This document shows positions 1-18,400 of a stretch of 64,000 bases of DNA, piece after piece. The notes beneath the pieces were generated by a model, which did not search any database, was not told where the DNA came from, and was given only the letters and a program-made list of their open reading frames with translations. Made by a program: the position numbers and the translations under genes. Where the stretch lies: contig CM065878.1 in assembly GCA_033439255.1 (NCBI GenBank), positions 1,426,001-1,490,000 of the forward strand, read 5' to 3'. Source of the DNA: Hericium rajendrae (Eukaryota > Basidiomycota > Agaricomycetes > Russulales > Hericiaceae). The first letter of the stretch is position 1. Every line of letters begins with the position of its first letter.

Positions 1-975
1 CTTCACATTTTTTTGATTGTATCTTCGCTCACATCATGAGCAGGCCCTGGAACTAGGAGCAGATACCATTCTCTTTGATGAGGACACCTGCGCGACCAAT
101 TTCTTGATACGAGATAGAAGAATGCAGATGCTTGTGTCTGCAGACCCCATCACACCGCTCATATTCAAAGCCAGTGGTTTTTCAGACGACATGCCCCGTA
201 CTCTTTCTGACTGTCTACCATTCAGATTCGGTCTATGTACAGAGACCATGGCTGTTCATCCATCCTTGTGATTGGCGGATGCGGTTCGCCTTCTTTTTTG
301 GACCTGCACAACTCATCACTGACTGTAATCCCAGGAGATTACTGTGACGTTGCCGACCTCGTCCTGGAAATGCGGAACTATGAATGCCATAACATCACCG
401 ACGCTGCACGACTTGTAGCCGAAAAGATACCATCAGTCGTACGTGACTATGAAGGTATAGAGCTTCTTATGTCCATGGACGACAATGGCAACGCATACTT
501 ACCGCTTTCCGTAGAAACGAGTTTCGGTCAAATAAGACGTCGGGAGATCAATCCTCGCAGTCTTCTGCCTTCCGGCGCCAAGACTGTCGCAAGAGGACGC
601 ACCACAATACAAATCGGAGAGGAGTCCCTTGACCTCACCCGCCTGATGCAACTCGTCCATGAGAGTCAAACTCGAGCCATCGTATCGATCCTTCAATATT
701 TGGTCGCCAAAAATCCTGCGCAGAAGCAAGTTGCCCTGGTCGACTGTCTTGATTCATTGCAGGCGTCACTAGACAGCGAGCGGGGACTAGATGAGGTGAC
801 GGCTAAAGATCGCATTGACGGATTCCTTGCTCGGCCACGACTGCTCGAAGTTGGCATGGCCATCAACCGTTTGGCAAGCACTCTCACCTCATGTCGTGTG
901 CTAAAGGGCTCATATTTCCCCCTCATCCAGCGCTCTGCCGCCTTGCAGTACAACAGCAAAATAGATAACAGGTAA
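1..975 (+). CDS. ABC-class ATPase (PF09818-type), 3' part
   Basis: C-terminal part of a predicted ATPase of the ABC class; the cellular role of this family is poorly known. The coding DNA appears to begin at base 44 after an intron acceptor, so the start lies outside the window. The motifs LFDEDTCATNFLIRDRRMQ and DPITPLI match the family's Walker-B-like segment (DEDTSATNFMIRD). After a 51-nt intron (284-334) comes GGCGDYCDVADLVLEM, matching the family's GGSGDYFDVADTVI. The end, RIDGFLARPRLLEVGMAINR, is also typical. The first joint has no GT donor that keeps frame; a GC-AG intron at 170-225 would give LIFK-IRSMYRDHG. Stop TAA at 973-975. Family assignment is from recalled motifs and fairly sure. 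Confidence 0.8.
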
Positions 976-1124
976 GACCGGGAAGCAGTTGCAAATGGTG
1001 AGTATGCGTAGTGTACAAATGCATGCTAGGGTATGAGACGACGCCTTGCGCCTAATTCTACATCAGTTGGATCCAACTTATGAGTCTTCCAAAGCAGCGA
1101 GATCGAAACGTTTGACGGTATCGA

Positions 1125-4100
1125 TCATCTCCGATCCTTTCCGGACGTAGACAAGCTGAATCTCGAGTCAGCATCGATGTTTGCCAGTATTGGGCCATGA
1201 AGACGCACCATGTATGGGTTGGCTGTGGAGCCAGTTGTATCTGCCAACACCTCGTCCTTGGAGACAACGCTCACGTCCGAATCGTTGTATTTGAACCAGG
1301 AATCGGGGTTTTCAGGGAGATGGCGGGAGTAGAAGAAGTAGTGGCCCCAAGATGGTGATGAGCCGCGGTGGATAAATACAGAAGTCAGCTCGTACGCTGC
1401 CTCGCGCTCATTCTCCCATATCCTATCCAGCTCCTCCTTCAGTTTTGACGCACGAGACCGCAGCTCTTCCAGCTCGACTCGCAGGTAATCCTGCTCCGAA
1501 TTGAGGAGCAAGATGAACTCATCATCTACCTCCGGCAGGTCGACCGCTTCCTGCTTCTGCAAGAACTCATGCGTGCTTGTGAGTGCTGAGCCGAAAGGTG
1601 CGTGCTGGCGGCGGTTGTAAGTATAGAAGATACTGGAGTTTACGCATCAGATCCTTACCTTCCCCGTTGTCAACAAATGTATTCGATCGCGAATCGCACT
1701 CAGCTCGGAGTGAATAGCCTTCGACCGTTCCTTCTTTTCTGGGTTGGCGCTGTCCAGGAAACGATCCATATAAAGAGTCTCTCCAAACTTGACATACGCC
1801 TGTGATTTGTACGGCTGCATCGTCTCGCGGTCGAACTGTGCCCTCTGCAAAGAAAATCAGCCATATTGCGTTGAAGCGCACAGGTTTTACACACCTGGAG
1901 CTGAATCTGCAGGACCGGAGGAAGATCAACAAGGGTGACCTCCATCCTGGCTTTCTTCGACTCAAATTCGACCACGTCATCAAAGTACCGGCTCAGGCCA
2001 TCGTACAGGTCGTAGCCTTCGTCAGAGACATTGACCGGGAGAAGCGAAAAGAGATCTTCTTTTTCATGCACAGATGGTTGCGATCCAGAGTCATCCGGGA
2101 TCATCGTCAAACGCTGTTTAAGGGTGCCATAGAACAGCCGCTTGACAATACTGGTCTTGCCTTCCTCAGTACCATCCATGCCGTCGAACCGCAGCAGCGC
2201 GGTCTCGATCTGGAACATGCAGTTATCCATGCACTCTGATACATCATGTTGGCGTCCTAGAGTAGAACAGCCATCAGCACTTCGCATATTGATGCCCGCA
2301 ACTAGACCCACCAAACATCATGACGGACTCCGCCGACTTCCTCGCCGGCGCTGCCGGTTTCGGAGCGACCTCCTTGCCCGCCTCCATGCCGACCTGCGTG
2401 TCAACATCCATATCTTTCTTCTCCGGTGACCGTTCCTTCCCAGGTGAGCTGGAGGACGCCTTCGGCGGCGAGCCAGAGCGCGCGCGGTGCGGCGACGCAG
2501 AATCGGACACCATGACGAAGTTCTCCTTGTCGGTATCGCCGACCTGCGTGTCCACGTCCATATCCACATCGCGGCGATCGGGGTCGCGCGCGCGCTTCCC
2601 GAGGACGGACGACGACCCTTCGATGGGCGACGCGACCGCCGTGTGCATGGGCGTGTCCTCCACGAGCGTCGCGTCCGTGTCGTTCGACGAATCGGTGCCG
2701 CCGCGGTCGACGTCGTCTTCCTCCTCGTCTTTGGACGTGACGAGCGCAAGCTTTGCGAGTTCGACGGTCGGCGTGACGGAGGGCGTCTCGCAGTGCTCCA
2801 TGTGCCAGAACAGGTCTGCCAGTTGGCTGACGACTGTGCAAAGAGTCAGAGAAGACGGGGAAGACTAGAGGTGGGGACTTACATTTCTTCGAGCGCATAA
2901 TCTCGCGTCGCGTTACCAGCCGCCCGCCCACGCGGTGCCGTTTCAGGTCGTCGTCTGTCAGTTTATCGTCGTCCATGGATTTCAAGCTGGCGTTGAGGAG
3001 CGGCTCCACAGCGTCCCGCAGATCACGTATGGTGTAGAAATATTGAAGAAGAGAGTTGAGGTAGCACGTATTGCCAAGTTGGTTGAGCCCTCTTGGCCAA
3101 TCCGGGCGCGTGGGCACAACGATGTCTCCCGCTAGATGACGAATCGAATGAGAACCGAGACAAGCATTCATACGAGGAACTCACGGTCAGCCCCAGTTTT
3201 GAGGAACTCCCTGATCCGAGTACTGTCCCTGAACTCGATAAACCGCCAGCGCCTCGCGCATTTTGTCTATCTGACTAGGCTGGTCCTCCAGCTATCGCAA
3301 ACGCTTCAGAACGCGGAACAGCAGCATCTTCGAAAACACGCACCCTCATAGCAAAGATCGTGATCAGCATCGCATCATCCACGTCCTTCGGCACCTCTAG
3401 CGTCTGGTACGCGCGCTCGGGCGTCATCCCGCCACTCTGCTCCTTCTCCCACAGCTTGAGCAGCTCCGCGCTCCCGCGCGCCTCTGCGACCATGCGCAGC
3501 GCGTCGTTCGCCTCGCGCCACTTGGCCGTGCCGTTCGCCGTGTCGTTCCATGTGCTCTTGATGACATCCCGCCACGCGTTCACGATGAAGTCCTCCGGGA
3601 TGTCGTCGTCGAAGTCGACACCGAGCCGCGCGTCGCGCCCGAAGCCAAGAACCTTGACCGCCTCCGCGAGATTGTCCCATGTGAAGCGATTGCGCGCGCG
3701 CTCCTGTACGACAAGGTCCTGCAGCTCTTGCGGCGCATCATGTCCCATAAGAGGGAAAAGAGGTTGAAAAAGGCGGAGAAGTATTTGATTGTGTTGGCTG
3801 GATCGCAGCGGCATTGGGCGTAATACGCGAAGGCGAGATTTTCTGAAAAATAAATGATTAGATAGTTCGATGAAGGATAGACCAAATTGTCGTACCCCAA
3901 GAGTAAGATGCAGGAGTCATGCCGAGTACTTCCCATTCTTCCATCTTCTCCGTTCCCACAAGGCCAGGCGGGAGATAATCAACCTGTCGAGCTTATAACA
4001 AGATAAGTCAGTAGTTTTTCTAGTTCAAAACAGACAGACAACGTACTCTGATCAGGGAGGGCATGAAATTTGCTCTGATACTTTTCTCGCGCACTCTCGA

Positions 4101-5769
4101 TCTGGACCCACAGTGGGTGTGGACGGAAGTCTTTGAGAGCAGGAGCTATATAATGATTGAGAACCAGGCTGTGAATTAGTGATGGACAAGACTCACCAAA
4201 CCGTTTTTGATAGTCTGCAAGCCAGGCGCTGATCTCGACCCACGCACGCAGCAACTTGCCTCGAGTGCGTTTGCCCTCAGGCCTGCTGGGGTCAATACTT
4301 GGAGGTCTAAGCGACACGTCTTCGGAGCCGGAGTCCTTGTCCTTGTCCGACGTAAAATCTAATGCTGTAAAGATAGCTTGTCTGCATTTTGATATTAGCA
4401 AGGTGATGGTAAGGTGAAGCAGAAAGATTCTTACAATGTTGGATTCCATCCCAGTTTGGTCTGAAATGCCTTTCTTGTAACAGGTAGCTGACGAGTCTCT
4501 CCTTTCCACAATCTGTTCTCGATTATGCTGCGTGTGGGTCAGAGTAAGATACCGCAACATAGGATGAGGGATATGCACTCACGTCAAGATCGTCTCCCAA
4601 GCAGTCATCACCATGTGCTCGCCCGTCTTCCCAGGTGGTGGGTGCCCCGCCTTGTCTCTAGTCAAATCCTCTACATACTTGACCGGGATGACGCCCGAGT
4701 GCACGTCCGAGACGACACAATAGAGCTGGCACTGGCAGCACACATAAAGGTCGAGCAGCTCGCCCTCCTCCTCCGATTCCTCCATCTCCACATCCGCCTC
4801 CTTCGCATCCTTCAGCGCCTCCAGATCCACGGGCGCATTCCCGAGATCGAGCGTCATCTTCCGCCGGCGCTTCTTCCGCGACTCAAGGTCCTCCCACTCG
4901 CTCCGCACGAACGGCGTGTCAAGCTTCCGTGCGTCCGCCGCGGCCGCGTAGTAGTGAAAGTGGTGCGCGCGGTCCACCGTCCGCACGCCGCGCTCCGCGT
5001 CGCCGACGCAGCACGCGGAGCGGCGGCGATGCTCCTGATCGGGCAGCGCGCCCGTAAACGAACGCGCAACGGGCGGGGGCAGGCTCGAGAACTTCCACGA
5101 GAGCAGCACCCAGCCGTTGTGCTTGCGACAGTAGTACGCGTTCGGGTGCGGCACGGCCGTGCGCACTTCGTCCGCGCCGGGCGGGACGAATGGCGGCGTG
5201 CCGTCGGGCGCGCGCACGTCCGGCGGCGCGACGGCGACGTGGAAGAGCGTGTGCTCCGCGTTGTGCACGCGCTGCGCGAGCAAGGGCCCGAGGATGCCGG
5301 GGCCAGGGCGCGCGGCGTGCGCGGCGGGGTCCCACCAGCGCGCCTCCTCCGCCTCGTCGCGCCCGTCGATGCCGACCTTCGCGGCGACGTCCGTGCCCCA
5401 GCCGATGGTGGTGGACGGCTCGAAGAGCCCGCCGCCGGGCGCGAAGGCGTCCCATGAGGCATCCTGCGCGGGCCAGGAGGATGAGGCCGGGTCGTACTGC
5501 ACGTCGAGGCTCGCGGCGGGCGCGAGGGCGGGGGTGTCCTCGACGAGCTCGGGCTCGCGGAAGGGCTCCTGCCAGACGTGCGTGTTGGCGGAGCCAATGC
5601 CAGAGCTGGAGGGGCGCTTGGGGAGCGGGGGCTTTTGGTTCTGCGGCTGGATGCCGTAGAAGGATGCAGGGGCTATCGGGCTGCCTGGTCGGCCTTCTGT
5701 GCCGGATTTGCGAGACTTGGTGGATGGGGTCGAGCCCGGCTTAGGCGAGCGCGGTGTGGAGTTGTCCAT
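1125..5769 (-). CDS. Ubiquitin carboxyl-terminal hydrolase, Ubp2-like
   Basis: Cysteine deubiquitinase that cuts ubiquitin from proteins. It reads from ATG at 5769 through many exons to TGA at 1125-1127. The first exon (396 codons) holds a Ser/Pro-rich leader. The middle exon near 3275-3810 carries a GMTPERAYQTLEVP segment like the repeated UCH/UBP2 (RPT) domain. The Cys box is LNQLGNTCYLNSLLQYFY (active Cys near 3065), then GRQHDVSECMDNCMFQIE and LPPVLQIQLQRAQFD. The His box is SSPSWGHYFFYS (His near 1342), followed by SWFKYNDSDVS. An acidic low-complexity insert at 2300-2800 splits the catalytic domain and carries DMDVDTQVG twice plus KRARD. In yeast, Ubp2 acts with Rsp5 on K63 chains; that role here is inference. 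Confidence 0.9.
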
Positions 5770-6290
5770 CCCGGCTTGGAGATCAGTTGATAGGTGGGAT
5801 GAGTGCCTTCAATGGGGTGCGAAAGCGTAGATCACGTCACTCGTGTGTGGTCCGTCTGGAAGAATGGTAAGATACGATCGTATTCTGGCTCATCGAGTAG
5901 TGATGTTTGGGCTTACTGTGCCGCTAGGATGAACACAAGGAGATGTCTGAGATAGTACTCGTGGGGGATGTCGAAGGGTTTGTGAAGCTGTTACGAGCCC
6001 CACGTGCTGAATACTGCGGTGCGCTGACGCGTTCCCAAAAAGACAACTGCAGCATCTGGCAGCATCACAGGCCTCTAAGAGCAGCAAGGCAGCATAGAAC
6101 GGCATGTAACTCCTAGTCTTTATGCGTTACGTCTTGGAGCAGCATCTGGGATTTGTATGGCTGATTTAAAACATGTCATATTTCCTGATCTACACTTTTC
6201 CATAAAATCTAGTTTATGGGACTGTATTCGACTGGAGACGGGAAGCGGTAGCAGTGTAGACACTATCTATTAGCAGAACAACGAGACAAC
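5770..6290. other. Intergenic, upstream of the Ubp2-like gene
   Basis: About 520 bases between the start of the deubiquitinase gene and the 3' end of the MCR1-like gene, both on the minus strand. I see no coding signal, RNA gene or repeat. The part next to 5770 should hold the deubiquitinase promoter. Confidence 0.5.
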
Positions 6291-7595
6291 CTAGAACTTG
6301 TAGACCTGGTCCTCCGTGTACCCGAGCTGCTTAAGGATACCCCCGAGCTCACCCTGCTTCATCCCATCCTTCTTACCCGCAATAGCGTTAACCTGACCAG
6401 GAGGGCCTGCAAGAATGAAGAACAAATCAGATCTTCGTGGGACCGACAGTGTCTGCACGATGGCGTACCGCAAACGAAGACCTTCGTCTTCCCCTTCAGC
6501 TCTGGCGAGGCAATCTCCTTCTTGATCAGCTCAGCATTAATGTATCCCGAGGGGCCTGCACGGAAGTGCACGTTAGGATCTTGTTCGTGACATAAGGGTG
6601 ATAGTTGTACCTTTCCAGTCGGAAGTTGGCTTGTCGACCGTGTAGACAACGTCAAAGTTGTTCGGGTATTTCTTTTTCCACTCGTCAAACTCCTCCTTCA
6701 GTAGGATGTCGGCTGGCGTGATGTTCGCGAAGATGAGCTTGAACTTGGTCTTGTTTGACGGGTCGGGGAGTGCGTGCTTCAGAATCTGGTAGAGCGGGGT
6801 GCTAAGGGGTGGATCCGTTCAGTGGACGAGAAATGCCGACGTGGATAGGACAACTGACATTCCGCTCCCACCGCCGATCAGCCCGACTTCCTCGAACTCG
6901 TTCTCTGCAAGCGTCCATGTCAACTCGGCATCCGCAGCATTTTATAGGGGGACGCACGCTTCCATGGCCACTTGGGAATGGGGCCCTTGATGCTCAGCTT
7001 GTCTCCCTCCTTCAGGCCGTGAACGTGCTTCGACGCGAGGCCCGTCTCGTACCTCTTGATGAGGAACTCGAGCTCGCCCTCCTGGTTCGAGTGCGAGATA
7101 GGCGTGTACGGGCGGACGACGGGCTTACCCTTCTCATCCTTGAGCACCTCCGGATCCGACGACTTCACGATGACGCAGGACGCGATCGGGAGGAGTGATG
7201 CTTGGCCGTTGGGAAGCTCGAAAACGAACCTGCGTGAGCGGCGTCAATATGAGGGCGCGGCCGTTGAGAATAGGGGAATATGCACCGAGAGGTGTTGTGA
7301 TTGTACGGAATCACCTTCTTGAGCTTGAAATCGACCCAGTTGTCAGGGTCGAGTGGGCTCTTCGTCTGCTTGGGCTTTTGCAAACTGCCGTAATAGAGGT
7401 AGCCGCCGACACCAGCGATACCTGCGCCCATCAGGTACAGGGCGAGATTGTTGGGTTTCTTCTGCGCAGGGGCTTCGGTGGTAAAGCGTCTCGCAGCGGC
7501 CGCCTAGGAGACATCAGTATGAGAACGCATACTAGGGACCCATACACCGGACGCACCGCTGAGCGCGCCGTGGTTGCTGTGCGGATAAATGACAT
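6291..7595 (-). CDS. MCR1: NADH-cytochrome b5 reductase, mitochondrial type
   Basis: FAD flavoprotein that passes electrons from NADH to cytochrome b5, serving sterol and ascorbyl-radical reduction at the mitochondrial outer membrane or intermembrane space. ATG at 7595-7593 opens MSFIRTATTARSAVRP, an Arg-rich mitochondrial presequence, joined over a ~45-nt intron to AAARRFTTEAPAQKK and a membrane anchor, LALYLMGAGIAGVGGYLYYG. The FAD motif is VVRPYTPIS followed by GELEFLIKRY. NADH-site segments are GLIGGGSG, KFKLIFANITPADILL and KVFVCGPPGQ. The C terminus YTEDQVYKF is typical of the family. There are about six short introns. Stop TAG at 6291-6293. It is divergent from HOG1. Confidence 0.93.
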
Positions 7596-10765: not shown

Positions 10766-13700
10766 ATGAACGCTCGAACCGCGTCCGGCTCGCGTGTGCG
10801 CAGGCCTACGGCCTTCGAGGCCAGTTTCGGCGAGCCCATGGAGGAAGAGGAGGAGGCTCCGCGAGTGGGCGGAAAGAGGAGATCGGAATCCGCTGAGGAA
10901 CGGGTGAGTGTGACAGTGCGCTGTCGCCTTGCGGGCGGTGACTGACGGGATCATTATTGGGCTCAGCCTGGCAAGAGGGCAAATCAGCAAGATGGAAGGC
11001 GCGCGAAGCAGCAGCAACGACAAGGTATGTGAAGACATGACAAAAGATGCTGATATCGAGGCTGACAATGCGTGTACGTCCGCCCAGTGATACGCTACGC
11101 CCCGCAGCCGGGCGAGGTCCCCGAAAGCAACAACCCGCTCGTGCTCGGCGAAGAGCTCGACGACGCCTCCAACGAGCGTCCGATCCGCGTGCTCTCCGAC
11201 TTTGTGTTCTTCGACCCCGCGCACCAGCTCGAGATGCTCTCGCTCGCGGCGCTCGAGGCGGACGACAGCATGCTCGACCGCCAGTTCGAGGGCGCGGGGT
11301 TCGTGTGCCCGCACTACGACAATGAGGAGGACGGCGGGCAGGAGGACGAGGACGACGAGTTCGTGCCAGTGCGCATGCGCCTGAGCGCGGTGCTCACGAC
11401 ATGCGTGGACTATACCGTGCGCGATGAGTAGGTCGTTTTTCTGTCGACTGGGTGATGTTGGGTGCTGATTGTGGTTTTGCAGTCCGATTTATATTATCAC
11501 GTCATTTGCGTGGTATATGCTGCGCAACCCGTTCCCCGCATATAGCCCGTTCTACACGGAGTTCTACAGGGTGCAGAAGGCACTGCAGGCGCTCATCTCG
11601 ACAGCCGTTGCTGAACCGGACACGACCCCGGAGGCCTTCTTCTCAGACTTGTCCAGCGTCAGAGACGAAATTCTCGGCCGGCCGCTCGACGAGCGCGACA
11701 TCAGAGCAGCGGTACGCCATTTCCCTTCATTCTTACTGCCTAGTCCCTTACTCCAAGTTTCCCAGGTACCCCTCCTCTCCGATGCAATCGAAACCGCTTC
11801 GGAGAGTGGCGCTCCCGCCGCCGATCAGCCGAATTTCGTCGCTCGCGTGCAAGCAAGCACGAAGCGGATCGTCGCGCCCATCCTCGCCGGGCGCAGCATC
11901 GCCCCAGCGCGCCTGCGCGGAGCAACGCGTACCATCCGCAACCTGACGAGCCGGAAGCTCGCCTCATTGCCGTCTCGCGACCCCGACATCGCGGTGCTGA
12001 AGGCGGAGAACCAGAACCCCACGCACGTCACGCCGCGCATCGCGCTGCTCGCGCGCGGCCTGTTCCGCGAGCAGCTCGTCGTCGTCGGCCCGCGCCCTGC
12101 CCACCCCACCCCTGCGGTCCTGCGCCGGCGCCAGCAGGACGAGCACGCGCTCATCCTGCGCTTTATTGCTGCGGCGCTGCGCGACGACCCGCCTGTCCGC
12201 GCGTTGGATCAGTGGCGCCTTGGCGGCGACCGTCGGTCGCCGTGGCTGAAGAAAGTTAAGGTCGGGGACGAGGAGTATTCGGTACGTGCTCGCACGGTAT
12301 GGCCGGAGTAGCGTTCGTGGCTGACTGATGTTGTAGGTCGGAGACGTGATCGTCGTCCCGATCGGAAAGGATGAAGCTACAGGCAAGACCGGACCTGATC
12401 TCCCTGACCACTCGAGGGACGTCCCGGAGGACGCCATGATCGCAGACTACTTTTGGTAGGTCTCGATCGGCTGCTCGCTCGCTCTTGTTCTGATCGTACT
12501 GCTCGTAGGTTTGCGAAGGTCATATCGATAAATTTCGGGGAGGACAACGTGCATGTCCAGTGGTTCGAACACAGCTCCAAAACGATGCTGGAAGATGTCA
12601 GCGATGCACGCGAGCTCTTCCTCACCAAGATTTGCAACAATGTCGGGCTCAAAAGTATTGCTGGGAAGGTGGAGGCAATTCAACTGCCGCCAAATCAACC
12701 CGTGCTCGAGCCAGGCCTGCGAACAGTCTTTTACTACAAGTAAGTCTCTACATCGTAACGGCTTAGTGTTTTCTAACACGAAGTTAGATTTGTCTATGAT
12801 AAGAAAGAGGCAACTTTTATGGACATCCCCCTAATGCCTGTTATCGACTCCCCTCCCGATAATTGCATGTGTTGTGCATTTCAAGAGCAGATAGCCTACG
12901 ACGAGTTCCGTGAGATCGAGAATGGCATCGTGTTGAAGGGGATCAGCTATCACATTCATGACTTTGCATACATCTGCTCGAGTGATGGCCCGTGCAAGAT
13001 TGGCCAAATCACATCAATTGCGAGGCCGAAACGTGCACGAGATGCAGCATTTAGTGTGACTGTCCGTCGTCTAGGACTATTCGGCAGTCTCAGCATCCTA
13101 CCACCAGGCAAGTTCAAGGATGAGGTGTGTTTATGTGTCCCCCTCTTGTCTGCTTCATCAGATGACTGATGACTTGTTCTTTTGTAGCGTGAACTGTTCC
13201 TGACAGACGAGGAGGAGACTGTGTCCACGGATGACCTTATTCAAGTCTGTTATGTCGCACATGGTAATGTCTTAGAGGACAAGGAAGCATGGTGTCAGGC
13301 ATCACCAGATCACTTTTATGTCCGATTCCATTTTCCAAAATTATCTCCATGTCGTTGGGGTCAACATCACCAAGTGGCTCATGAAGAGCTGCTTGTTTGT
13401 TCTTACTGCCTTCAAGAGAAGATCAAAGAGCAGCACGATTGGAAGCAGTTTGCTTTGAGGCCTCAGCTATCTGTTTTTGATCCATTTGCTGGTGTTGGTG
13501 CTCTTAGCCAGGGATTAGAGTCAGCAGGTGGAATTAAGACCACTCATGCAGTTGAGATCTCTCCTAGTGCTGCAATCACATTCAGGTAACCTTTCTACTT
13601 ACATTATTTCTTTAATCTTATTTGTTGATGTTGTGTGATAGAAAAAACTCCTCGAATACTGTGGTGTACAATCAATGTGCTAATGAGATGCTTCGCTACA

Positions 13701-15382
13701 CTATCAAGTATCACAGAGGCTTGTTGGATGCTGCAGATCAACCCAAGCATTTGTCTCAGGAAGTAGGATTTCACTTGCCTCCTCCTCCTAAACCTGGATC
13801 AATTGATATCTTAGTAGCTGGTTTTCCATGGTAAGCACAATTCACTATAAATATAAACTCTCTAATATTTTTCTCTAGTCAGCCTCATTCTTGCTTGAAC
13901 ATGTTCCAGAAGGCAAATGATGTTAAGAGTAATCTTCTTTTAACTCTGCTATCTCTGGTGGATGAACTTCAGCCCAAATACTGTGTTTTTGAAAATGTCA
14001 AAGGTTTTCTGCAGTTCAATCTCAACTCTGTGCAGCATGATCAGTTTAGGACTGAGGATGGTATTGAGATGGGAGGTTTAAAAGTTTTGATAAGAATCTT
14101 AGTTGCAATGAAGTATGTGATGCAATGCTTTTATCTGTCTTGATTCTGATATCCTTCAAAGTTATCAAGTGAGATTTGGCCTGCTACAGGCTGGACACTA
14201 TGGAACTCCTCAAGGCAGAATAAGATTCTTTCTCATAGCTGCTAGAACTGGCTTCATTCTTCCCAATCTTCCTCAGCCTACTCATGACTTTCCTATATCT
14301 GGCAAGCTAGAAATCAAGTTTTCCAATGGTGATTCTATTCAGCCTATCATTACTGAGAGGGGCACAGCACCACTTTTGCCTGTTACTGTGGATGATGCTA
14401 TCTCTGATCTGCCTAGATTTGACTGGCAAGTTATATTTTTTATAATCATATCAATTAATACTTACTATATTAAAGGTTAGGTCCTGATTCAGCTACACAA
14501 GCCTTTCAAGCTCAACAAAGAGTGGAAGATTTTCCAACATATGCTTGTGATAGTTTCAAAAGTCATGTTGGAATTGAAGGAAAGCCTACTTATCACAGTA
14601 AACCTCTAAATACCTTTCAACAAAAGAGTAGAAGAGAGGAAGTCTTCAATATTCAGCACTTTACAAGAGTGCTAAGACCTGAGGCTATAGAGCGGTAAGT
14701 CTTCTCTTATTGTAAATTAATTTAAGCTAACTATTTTCTCATCAGTGTAATTCATATTCCTCTAGTTGCAGGTGCAGACTATAGAAGTCAGTACTACTTT
14801 ATTTACTTTTTTACTTTGCTTATCATTTTGTTCAGGTCTCAAATCTAAGCATTGGGAATGGCAGTTCTCAAACCCCTCTTCTGCTGTTGCTAGAGGAGGA
14901 TTTAGAGCAGGTATTCTAAGTTTTTTTTTCTAACAATGAATACCTTTGATCTCATATTAATACAGGATTATATGGAAGGATTGACAAAGATGGCTTTTTC
15001 ATCACAACTGTCACAAATATGGAGCCCACTGCCAAGCAATGTAAGGTCTTAAATCCTTATGTGAGTTGTGATCTTTTGTTTCATCTTGGATATCCTTCTG
15101 ATGATTATTAGTGCATGAGGACTGTTACAGTCCGTGAGCTGGCCAGGTCACAGGGATTTCCTGATCACTTCGAATTTTACTCTCTCAACAATAGTGTGAA
15201 GACAGTGAGTACCTGAATGCATGATGCTATCTTACACTTCTGAATTTATCTCTTAGATGCACAGACAGATAGGGAATGCAGTGCCTTGGCCAGTGGGTGC
15301 TGCATTGGGTAGGGAGATCAGGTTAGCTGAGTTCAAGAGATGGAAGAAAAACTGGCAGGAGGCAACACATGTAGATGACTAG
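10766..15382 (+). CDS. DNA (cytosine-5) methyltransferase, DNMT1-like with BAH domains
   Basis: Transfers methyl from S-adenosylmethionine to C5 of cytosine in DNA, probably in CpG maintenance. ATG at 10766 opens [18 protein letters not shown] and a basic, acidic-patched leader. An RFTS-like domain follows ([35 protein letters not shown]), then two BAH-like domains ([51 protein letters not shown]). Catalytic motifs: I = [19 protein letters not shown] = GFPCQPHS (split by an intron at about 13832-13878), VI = [14 protein letters not shown] = [18 protein letters not shown], and IX/X = [23 protein letters not shown]. Stop TAG at 15380-15382. The order matches DNMT1. Base use changes sharply inside the gene: the 5' half is CpG-dense, the catalytic half nearly free of CpG. 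It is convergent with the MCC subunit gene, 74 bases away. Confidence 0.95.
13441..15360. other. CpG-depleted tract covering the methyltransferase catalytic domain
   Basis: By hand count I find about five CpG dinucleotides in these 1.9 kb, none in 13695-14692 and none in 14695-15132. A single 60-base line in the same gene's 5' half (12001-12060) holds eleven. Arg codons in the tract are nearly all AGA or AGG, while upstream exons use CGN freely. Depletion covers introns as well as exons. It starts gradually from about 12.5 kb and ends abruptly past the gene, where CpG density returns by about 15.5 kb. Confidence 0.9.
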
Positions 15383-15456
15383 CCGAAGCAGCAGCGGTGG
15401 ATCAATGCTGAACTTTAGTTTAGTTTGATATACAAGTAATCTACAATGTTCCATGT

Positions 15457-18400
15457 TTACTCCGTGTCCTCTTCGATGTCGACCAGTTCCCGGCCTTCCT
15501 CAACCATCTCCCCCTTCGTACAACCAACAGCTTTTACAACACCACTGACCTCCGCCCGGAGAACCGTCTCCGTCTTCATGCTCTCGAGCACCACGACCGC
15601 CTGGCCCTTCTCGACGTGCTCGCCCATCATCACACGCACCTCGACCACCAAACTCGGCATCGGCGCCTTCAGCGCGCCCTTCGCGGCACCGAGGATGTCG
15701 CCGCCGAGCGAGCGCAGCCAGCCCGGCGAGGGCAGCACGAGCGTGGTCTTGTGCCCGCCCTGGAAGATGTGCAGGCGCTCCATCGTGTTCGGCGCGTGCG
15801 ACGGGCACATTCGGCGCGGGCGGCTGCGGACGACGGTCGCGCGTCGCGTCGCAGCGTCGAGCGTTGTGGAGAGCGTGTTTGCGGACGTGAGTTGCGCGGA
15901 CACGCCGTGAAGTGTGCGTATGTGCGCCGTGGTGGACGATAAGGTCATAGAGGCCACCGGGGGCAGGGGCGATGTGTACAGTGTAGGTGGGGGCGTCGGC
16001 CTCGGAGGGGAGTTCGGGTTGGAGGGTGACGACGCGCATGGGGATGTCGCCACCGAAGCGCCGAGCGCCGAGAGCGGTCCATGGGGTCGTGGTCGTTGTA
16101 GGCTGATCGCGGAGGACGGTATAGAGTGCGGCTTGAGCGAGGACTTCAGGCGAAGGTTCGGGAAGTGGTGGGAATAGCTCCGCGTGATGTTTCTGAGAAG
16201 TTCGAAAAAAGTCAGGGTTTGATTTCTGCGCCAGACGGAGACGCATTACCGGAATGAAGCCCGTCTCGACCTCGCCGTCGATGAACGCGCGGTGTCCTGC
16301 GAGCGCGCGCAGGAACTCGATGTTCGTCGATACGCCGACGACCTTGTACTCTTCGAGGGCGCGGCGGAGCACGCGCAGGGCCTCGGCGCGGTCCTCCGCG
16401 TGCACGATGAGCTTCGCGATCATCGGGTCGTAGAATACGCCGATCTGCGCGCCCTGTGTGAAGCCTTGTTCGAGACGCACGGACGGTGCGAAGCGCGCAG
16501 GCGTGTCCAGAGCAGCAACATTCATTGGGTCAGCGGAAGAGGGAGGCAGTGGCGGTGCGAAGATGTGCGTAGGCTCCGGAGTGGAGATGTAGAGCAACGG
16601 GCCTGAGTCAGGTAGGAAGTCGTTGCGCGGGTTCTCGGCGTATATGCGCGCTTCGAAGGCATGTCCAACGAGTGGGATCATTGATTGGTGCAAGGGCAGA
16701 GGGTTACCGGTGGCGACCTGGTATGAAAACCGATCGTCAGTGAATAGATGTCAGGGTGACACAGTGAGAGAACATGCCTCGAGCTGCCATTCTACAAGGT
16801 CAAGGCCAGTGATCATCTCTGTAACAGGGTGCTCGACTTGCAGGCGCGTATTCCTGCATGATGGAGCGGTATCAGACCCCAAAAAGACGCAAGGATAAGG
16901 AAACGAATGCATACATTTCCATGAAATAGAACTTCTGCGTGTCATTGTCGAATATGAACTCGACTGTCCCTGCGCCAACATAGTTGACCGCTTTCGCAGC
17001 AGCGACCGCCTTGTCGCACAGCTCCGCGCGCAATTCCGGCGATAGCCCTGATGCAGGCGCCTTCACAGATCAATCAACCAACCGTCAGTCATACCGTCAA
17101 TCTGACACTTGTCAAGCACCACCGCACTAACCTCCTCGATGATCTTCTGGTTCCGTCGCTGCACAGAGCAGTCGCGCTCCCACAGGCTGACAGTATTGCC
17201 GAGCATGTCCGCGAAGATCTGCACCTCGACGTGCCGTGGGCGCTCGACAAACTTCTCGACGAGCACTGTGGCATCGCCGAAGCCCTTCAACGATTCACGT
17301 TGCGCGGATTCGAGCGCGTCGAAGAAGGCGTCGGGGGTGTCTACGGTACGCATGCCTTTGCCGCCGCCGCCATGGACTGCTTTGATGAGGACCGGGAAGC
17401 CTGGGTTTGGGAGATGAGAGGCGCGGACAGGCGGTGAAGGGACAAAGGTGGATACCTATTTTCTCTGCTTCGCGGAAGAGATATTGTGGGTCTTGATTGC
17501 TGCCATGGTATCCTGGAACACATGATACTCGGCATCTTCAAATGAGGTATCAGAATGCAAGCCCTTGGCAGTGTACGAGAACAGAAAACAGCCTACTCGA
17601 CATGATAGTCTTTGATTCACTATTATCGGATGCATTTGATTTGAATCTGATTCATTCGCAGAAAATAGTCGTTCGCACCTCTTCGAACCCATGCTCACGA
17701 TTGCGCTGGCTGGAGGGCCAATGAACACGATGCCTTCTTTCGCCAGTTGCTCAGCAAATTTTGCATTCTCGCTCAAGAATCCGTAGCTTGATCAGAAGTA
17801 TAGTCAGCATTGGTGCGAAGCAGGCAAGCTTGTCGGCCGTGCATACCCAGGATGAACTGCCTTCATTGAGTATCAGTAGATGATTTGACCAAAATAGATA
17901 TGAAGCGTCCTACTTGAGCCCCGCTCCGGTGACACACGTCGATGATCTTATCCATACGAAGCTGAGAGCCTCGTCAGAATCAGGATCAATACACTCGGTA
18001 AATGATACGGTATACGCACATAGCTCTCCGAAGACTGAGCTGGGCCGATGCAATACGCTTCATCTGCCTAAGCAATTCGTTTCGGATAAGAGCATATATG
18101 CATCAAATTGAGGACTGCATACTAAGGAGACATGTAGAGAATCCGCATCGACATCGCTGTAGACAGCAACGGTTTTGATATCGAGCTTCTTCGCAGTGCG
18201 TATGACACGGCATGCGATCTCCCCGCGATTCGCAATGAGGATCTTGTCAAAGTGAGGCTTTCTTGGAGGAACAAGCGAAGATAGAGAGCCTGTTTGGGGA
18301 ACAAAGTGACAAGTCAGTCACGTCAGAACCAATCAGAGGTTCAAGACGCACCTGCTACCGCGGCGAATCCCCTCGTCTGTGCGTTCAAGGACACATGTCG

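Follow-up and report, generated by a model that had tools for sequence, protein, structure and literature searches.

The window analysed here is a 64,000-nucleotide stretch of the genome of the basidiomycete Hericium rajendrae (contig CM065878.1, C1:1426001-1490000), which harbors a gene for a DNMT1/Masc2-type cytosine DNA methyltransferase at positions 10766-15382 of the forward strand (C1:1436766-1441382). The catalytic half of this gene is a CpG desert, the desert is a strand-symmetric erosion of both CpG and CpC that goes beyond codon choice, and the gene itself is intact. Judged from the sequence, cytosines at this specific locus of a working gene have probably been modified over a long time; deamination and purifying selection would then have left the desert as a footprint. 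CpG decay in fungi is known above all from transposons that have been silenced. In this genome it is carried by intact genes, a methyltransferase among them, and its additional CpC component is not predicted by the CpG methylation reported for basidiomycetes.

Extent and composition of the CpG desert

A preliminary description of the window had counted about five CpG in the block 13441-15360. There are exactly five, which corresponds to an observed/expected ratio (o/e) of 0.069, compared to 1.12 for the whole window; in the same block the o/e is 1.16 for GpC, 1.19 for TpG and 1.34 for CpA. The two long CpG-free runs reported earlier (998 and 438 bases) correspond to CpG spacings of 999 (13694-14693) and 440 (14693-15133), which together with two spacings of 217 and 213 are the four longest in the 64 kb, the next one being 149. 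The sole CpG between 13694 and 15133 (14693-14694, forward strand) belongs to a CGT codon for Arg that is interrupted by the intron 14695-14745. When the limits are drawn at 13436-15383, 6 CpG stand against 74 predicted from base composition (Poisson P ~2e-24).

The gene can be divided into three parts on the forward strand. The 5' half (10766-12508), which contains the RFD domain and the stretch up to the first BAH match, is CpG-rich (o/e 1.28); counts in the 5' part of the gene rise to as many as 12 CpG per aligned 60 bases, one more than had been claimed. It is followed by a graded transition (12509-13435) in which CpG is partly eroded, third-position C being kept before G in 18/51 cases and third-position G after C in 9/32. 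The third part, with the catalytic exons and introns, is the desert itself (13436-15383), where the erosion also extends to third-position CpC and GpG and which ends at the stop codon. The earlier view that the desert is confined to the catalytic half can be refined: the 3' edge is sharp (the next CpG, at 15384, lies 2 bases past the stop codon), and the 5' edge is graded, windows of 200 bp, which confirm the depletion, showing the o/e dropping gradually from ~1 to 0.1 across 12901-13600.

The introns are depleted as well, as had been noted: the nine desert introns contain no CpG in 461 bases, compared to 27 in 391 bases of the seven 5' introns. Arginine is encoded almost throughout by AGA or AGG (24/27 codons in 13642-15381 versus 9/48 in 10766-12508, where 39/48 are CGN), again in agreement with the first reading of the sequence. 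The GC content of the block is 0.39 against 0.55 for the window, and at third codon positions GC drops to 0.36 from 0.80 in the 5' half. TpG and CpA are indeed common, with a sum of 293 in the desert versus 232 expected, so that the combination of CpG deficit and TpG/CpA excess anticipated for a methylated gene body is present. However, CpT and ApG are elevated as well (1.37 and 1.35), and the TpG/CpA excess is therefore unspecific.

Context of the erosion at third codon positions

Third codon positions were used to separate base context from protein constraint; they reflect composition only and not polarised substitutions. Within the desert, C at third positions has survived before A in 39/79 and before T in 30/57 cases (69/136 pooled), compared to 5/60 before C and 1/79 before G. 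The opposite strand gives the same picture, since third-position G is kept after A in 48/78 and after T in 26/46 cases, compared to 9/41 after G and 1/34 after C (Fisher P: CpC 3e-9, CpG 1e-16, GpG 3e-5). In the 5' half, third-position C is kept at 78-82% whatever the next base (45/58 before C, 59/75 before A or T). GpC is not depleted in 13436-15383 (o/e 1.17). The rule that C disappears in front of C or G is strand-symmetric and therefore points to DNA, not to translation. As far as third-position composition can tell, the desert displays the strand-symmetric C-to-T change with context bias that is characteristic of targets of repeat-induced point mutation (RIP) or of methylation induced premeiotically (MIP). 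It departs from the expectation for a methylated gene body that only CpG is affected, as CpC was lost as well.

The influence of codon choice was assessed by a synonymous codon shuffle, in which protein and codon usage are held fixed and the expected contexts are computed. In the desert, C followed by G occurs once versus 21.2 expected (z -6.0) and C followed by C occurs 5 times versus 15.6 (z -3.4), while C followed by A or T is in excess; in the 5' half C followed by G is in excess. Plain AT-richness or codon choice is judged insufficient. The CpG and CpC deficits persist under the shuffle, and the earlier suspicion that codon choice alone would not explain the pattern is borne out. Additionally, the shift of Arg codons from CGN to AGR requires transversions, and therefore the eroded state is likely old and not the result of one burst.

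The affected gene is an intact methyltransferase

A hand-built splice model of the gene comprises 18 exons and 17 introns and yields a single open frame of 1233 amino acids terminated by TAG at 15380-15382. The introns are short in both halves (46-71 bases), and one of them (14426-14475, forward strand) is a GC-AG intron (GCAAGT..AAAG) whose GC donor keeps the frame open. Pfam profiles match the protein above cut-off at residues 94-218 (PF12047), in two stretches for PF01426 (best 478-558) and at 842-1213 (PF00145), which gives the order RFD, BAH and C5-methylase that membership in DNMT1/Masc2 requires. Solved structures of DNMT1 can be aligned with the catalytic half across the catalytic motifs (best E 3e-56), and in the alignment to the DNMT1 chain 5guv_A the motifs which we take to be I, IV (PCQ), VI (ENV), VIII (QxRxR), IX and X are all present. 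What is presumably the motif I region (FDPFAGVG, 13476-13500, forward strand) lies just within the 5' edge of the desert. The gene is therefore an intact DNMT1/Masc2-type methyltransferase, with frame and catalytic motifs kept as originally stated.

Similar erosion in other genes of the genome

The uniqueness of the desert was evaluated against a background made up of ten segments of 10 kb, placed at round coordinates, and the remainder of the window, which together gave 796 windows of 200 bp. The first 119 kb of this background contain no CpG desert. An o/e below 0.25 was found in 16/796 windows, all 16 of them in segment L056 (C10:1000001-1010000), which at its positions 1-7000 contains CpG deserts and a 476-residue open frame matching DUF6535. 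A desert unique to DNMT1 is thereby rejected, one of ten background segments holding deserts together with a DUF6535 gene. In the frame of L056, third-position C is kept before G in 0/61, before C in 3/37 and before A or T in 35/150 cases. Searching the genome (46.8 Mb, 19 contigs) with this frame gave 28 matches, the query included, some of which are parts of one gene. Six further DUF6535 genes all match PF20153 above cut-off, are all CpG-poor (o/e 0.03-0.44) and are open across all 1.2 kb examined of each. Pooled, they keep third-position C before A in 144/390, before T in 130/317, before C in 26/220 and before G in 12/320 cases, and third-position G after A in 118/320, after T in 159/277, after G in 18/103 and after C in 18/220; their CpC loss is independent of the base following CC. 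Since the DUF6535 genes share the signature, the DNMT1 desert is one example among a class of eroded, open genes. The DUF6535 family is multicopy, and its genes combine AT-richness and a low CpG content with long open frames.

No desert was found in control genes, namely six kinases (o/e 0.96-1.18), six tandem P450 genes (0.83-1.20) and two RNA-dependent RNA polymerases (RdRPs; 1.06 and 1.16), although these samples are small and hand-picked (6 of 149 kinase and 6 of 111 P450 matches). Duplicate genes in general are rejected as targets, as the six tandem P450 genes and the two RdRP loci have no desert. AT-rich DNA can also be free of deserts: in the first 119 kb the six 400-bp windows that have a GC of 0.40-0.44, a small sample, show a CpG o/e of at least 0.71, and a stretch at GC 0.40 in the second DNMT1 gene described below has 1.03. 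The judgement that AT-richness is insufficient has to be read with the caveat that low GC and low CpG coincide in L056 and in the DUF6535 genes.

One would argue that the catalytic module simply came from an AT-rich, CpG-poor donor, as the preliminary description had proposed, and the low GC of the block compared to the window would agree with such an origin. However, the domain order is canonical, the introns are short in both halves, the 5' edge is graded, and similar deserts occur in the second DNMT1 gene and in the DUF6535 genes. Compositional relics of a donor also fade without an ongoing process. A foreign donor is thus very improbable, and this part of the earlier interpretation finds no support.

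A second DNMT1 gene and the question of targeting

A genome search with PF12047 identified two DNMT1-RFD places, the window gene and one on C12 (L040, C12:754001-761000, reverse strand), the latter gene lying at C12:756.6-760.9 kb. Over residues 454-1223 the proteins show 30% identity; the comparison of the two genes at the DNA level gave no significant similarity. Basidiomycete DNMT1/Masc2 proteins (Dnmt1a and Dnmt1b) have the same RFD, BAH and methylase domains, and two Dnmt1-type genes are present in Ganoderma sinense as well (PMC4457147; this and the other papers given by PMC number are cited from excerpts). In the catalytic part of the C12 gene a 565-base CpG-free run starts ~150 bases past motif I, 6 CpG are found over 850 bases versus 30 expected, and within the desert (2300-3200 on the reverse complement, rc) third-position C before G is kept in 1/30 cases. 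Downstream, in the 3' third of the gene (rc 3200-4500), the CpG o/e is near normal. The frame of the C12 gene is apparently broken once after the QGRRR exon (~rc 3290-3330), which could be an intron, an assembly error or a real break. Three other PF00145 loci (on C4, on C2 and at C1:4.46 Mb; ~3 kb each) show no CpG spacing above 89 bases. The comparison with other DNMT copies that had been recommended separates the two DNMT1-RFD genes from these three loci. By their motifs the loci on C2 and at C1:4.46 Mb are presumably Rad8/DNMT5-like and Dnmt2-like. The gene on C4 (L002, C4:1315701-1316153), likewise without a CpG desert, has SCVDYSNLN where the PCQ motif is usual.

These data allow for a feedback in which the DNMT1 pathway would methylate its own gene bodies as an expression brake, the desert being a scar of self-regulation. 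Both DNMT1-RFD genes have deserts in their catalytic parts and three of three other PF00145 loci have none; if the DUF6535 genes are excluded, deserts occur in 2/2 DNMT1 genes versus 0/17 other genes (6 kinases, 6 P450s, 2 RdRPs and 3 methyltransferases; P ~0.006). However, this control set is small and hand-picked, and the DUF6535 genes, which have no evident methylation link, share the desert, so that DNMT1 is not singled out; when seven of them are counted, the contrast becomes 2/2 versus 7/24. Furthermore, the C12 desert lacks the CpC loss and the 3' third of that gene is nearly normal. Feedback of this kind is, from sequence comparison, an unlikely explanation.

Alternatively, a homology-directed, MIP- or RIP-like modification could have struck repeated DNA, namely the DUF6535 genes and, in the DNMT1 pair, just the part that is conserved best. 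DUF6535 is indeed multicopy, both DNMT1 genes have their desert in the catalytic part, and there is a precedent in Zymoseptoria tritici, where a DNA methyltransferase gene was struck by RIP after amplification (PMC8016269). Yet the desert matches only itself in a search of the whole genome at the DNA level, so that the duplication expected of a RIP or MIP target is missing, and the two DNMT1 genes, as stated, are not significantly similar. The six tandem P450 genes, pairs of which share 82-220-base stretches of 75-87% identity, have no desert, and the transversions needed for CGN to AGR do not fit a single burst of transitions. Thus it is not likely that homology directed the erosion.

Selection instead of mutation has also to be considered: CpG, and CpC with it, could have been eliminated since a modified site would damage an essential gene or shut it down. 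The extreme loss in a gene whose protein was kept, the exchange of Arg codons (24/27 AGR) and the inconspicuous share of NCG-to-NCA changes would all be compatible with this. However, the introns were also cleared of CpG, CpC and GpG were lost too, and the DUF6535 genes show the same pattern, which makes selective removal quite improbable.

Cytosine modification as the probable cause

CpG-biased C-to-T change was observed in retrotransposons of the same genome. In one family (28 of 30 loci were used; L010 and L011, ~72% identical, belong to another subfamily and were left out) the C-to-T rate, calculated for each site and copy, amounts to 0.0301 at CpG, 0.0040 at CpC, 0.0034 at CpT and 0.0025 at CpA. 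Two 6-kb stretches around older retrotransposon relics have CpG o/e of 0.51 and 0.42.

We favor modification of a working gene because of the sequence context and strand symmetry of the losses, the CpG-free introns, the intact frame, the C-to-T changes at CpG in retrotransposons and the shared signature of the DUF6535 genes. The 3' half of the DNMT1 gene body would have undergone germ-line methylation on an evolutionary time scale, mainly at CpG and more weakly at CpC; the modified cytosines of either strand would have been deaminated to thymine, and purifying selection would meanwhile have preserved the protein. The modification may be 5-methylcytosine and may be ongoing, and a single process could lie behind both CpG and CpC losses. 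The gene could stay expressed, as its promoter and 5' half appear unaffected. Methylation with deamination had been the first of the earlier proposals; its mutational part agrees with the context-specific and symmetric losses and with the retrotransposons. The DUF6535 genes speak against a desert unique to this locus.

Several observations weigh against this explanation. The drop in GC exceeds what CpG loss explains (desert introns 28%, 5' introns 52%), and CpG loss alone is insufficient for the whole change in composition because the block is also AT-rich. The 5' half is itself mildly short of C followed by C in the shuffle (45 versus 57.6 expected, z -3.1). Among the fourfold NCN codons of the desert the share of A is no higher than at other fourfold codons (33/115 versus 25/91), whereas that of T is (69/115 versus 32/91), and therefore NCG-to-NCA, the path predicted for deamination, fails to stand out. 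Noncoding CC/GG ratios are mixed: 0.49/0.14 in the desert introns, with the 5' introns also low (0.74/0.62), and 0.57/0.49 in one noncoding part of segment L056 with 1.34/0.65 in another. The C12 DNMT1 desert shows no CpC loss (C before C 9/30, before A or T 18/50), and further downstream (rc 3200-4500) CpC (10/41) and CpG (10/44) are both lower than A/T (33/63). The relic stretches show no CpC erosion (CC and GG o/e 1.02-1.05) and the 28-copy family hardly any; transposons thus display CpG decay with hardly any CpC decay, which speaks against a single process for all, and known CpG methylation leaves the CpC erosion unexplained. In Pleurotus, CG methylation concerns mainly transposons and genes are nearly free of it (PMC5974365). 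A tentative proposal of low probability is a system distinct from the CpG-only methylation of transposons, which would modify cytosines at CpG and CpC in chosen intact genes (DUF6535 and the organism's own DNMT1 among them) and so feed back on the methylation machinery.

Modification and deamination, the cause we prefer, have relatives in other fungi. Of the cytosines methylated in the polypore Ganoderma sinense 98.7% lie in CpG, transposons are methylated more than genes, RIP-like C-to-T changes in transposons favor CpG, and Dnmt1a and Dnmt1b homologues are present (PMC4457147). Rhizoctonia solani shows CpG-biased C/T differences in genes as well as in repeats (PMC4014442). The window desert shares C-to-T change and CpG preference with such RIP-like mutation of Agaricomycetes, but its target is a functional gene without a detectable repeat, the change is concentrated in one half, and CpC was lost too. 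MIP-like methylation followed by CpG deamination has been proposed in connection with Masc2-like genes (PMC4352252); the decay is similar, but the window desert has no duplicate at the DNA level and its gene is intact. In Zymoseptoria tritici dim2, likewise a DNA methyltransferase gene struck by C-to-T change, 23 non-functional copies exist in the reference isolate and the enzyme was lost (PMC8016269); the window gene, by contrast, is single and intact and carries only tolerated changes. Basidiomycete Dnmt1 and Rad8 classes have been described (PMC5073141), and the excerpt of PMC8889193, on Laccaria and Coprinopsis, does not contain the term DNMT1. Among the open-licence papers listed, titles and abstract beginnings mention neither a CpG desert in a DNMT gene of a basidiomycete nor CpC decay in this phylum; DUF6535 is named in a single listed paper. 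The viral and genome contig collections searched, neither of which is a fungal genome collection, turned up no relative. If this is confirmed, sequence alone would show which genes underwent germ-line methylation, and a direct test would become possible of whether the methylation machinery acts on the genes that encode it.

Neighbouring genes and other observations

A convergent gene for a biotin-dependent carboxylase (window 15457-16693, minus strand; PF02785 Biotin_carb_C and PF00364 Biotin_lipoyl) has normal CpG, and its last open frame ends at 15457, 75 bases from the DNMT1 stop codon. GC peaks of 0.74 (window 12001-12200) and 0.72 (15701-15900) flank the AT-rich desert, each within 2 kb. 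Elsewhere in the genome Tet_JBP has 46 matches, many of them open frames of equal score and length (293, 204 or 194 amino acids), a uniformity that suggests carriage by mobile elements.

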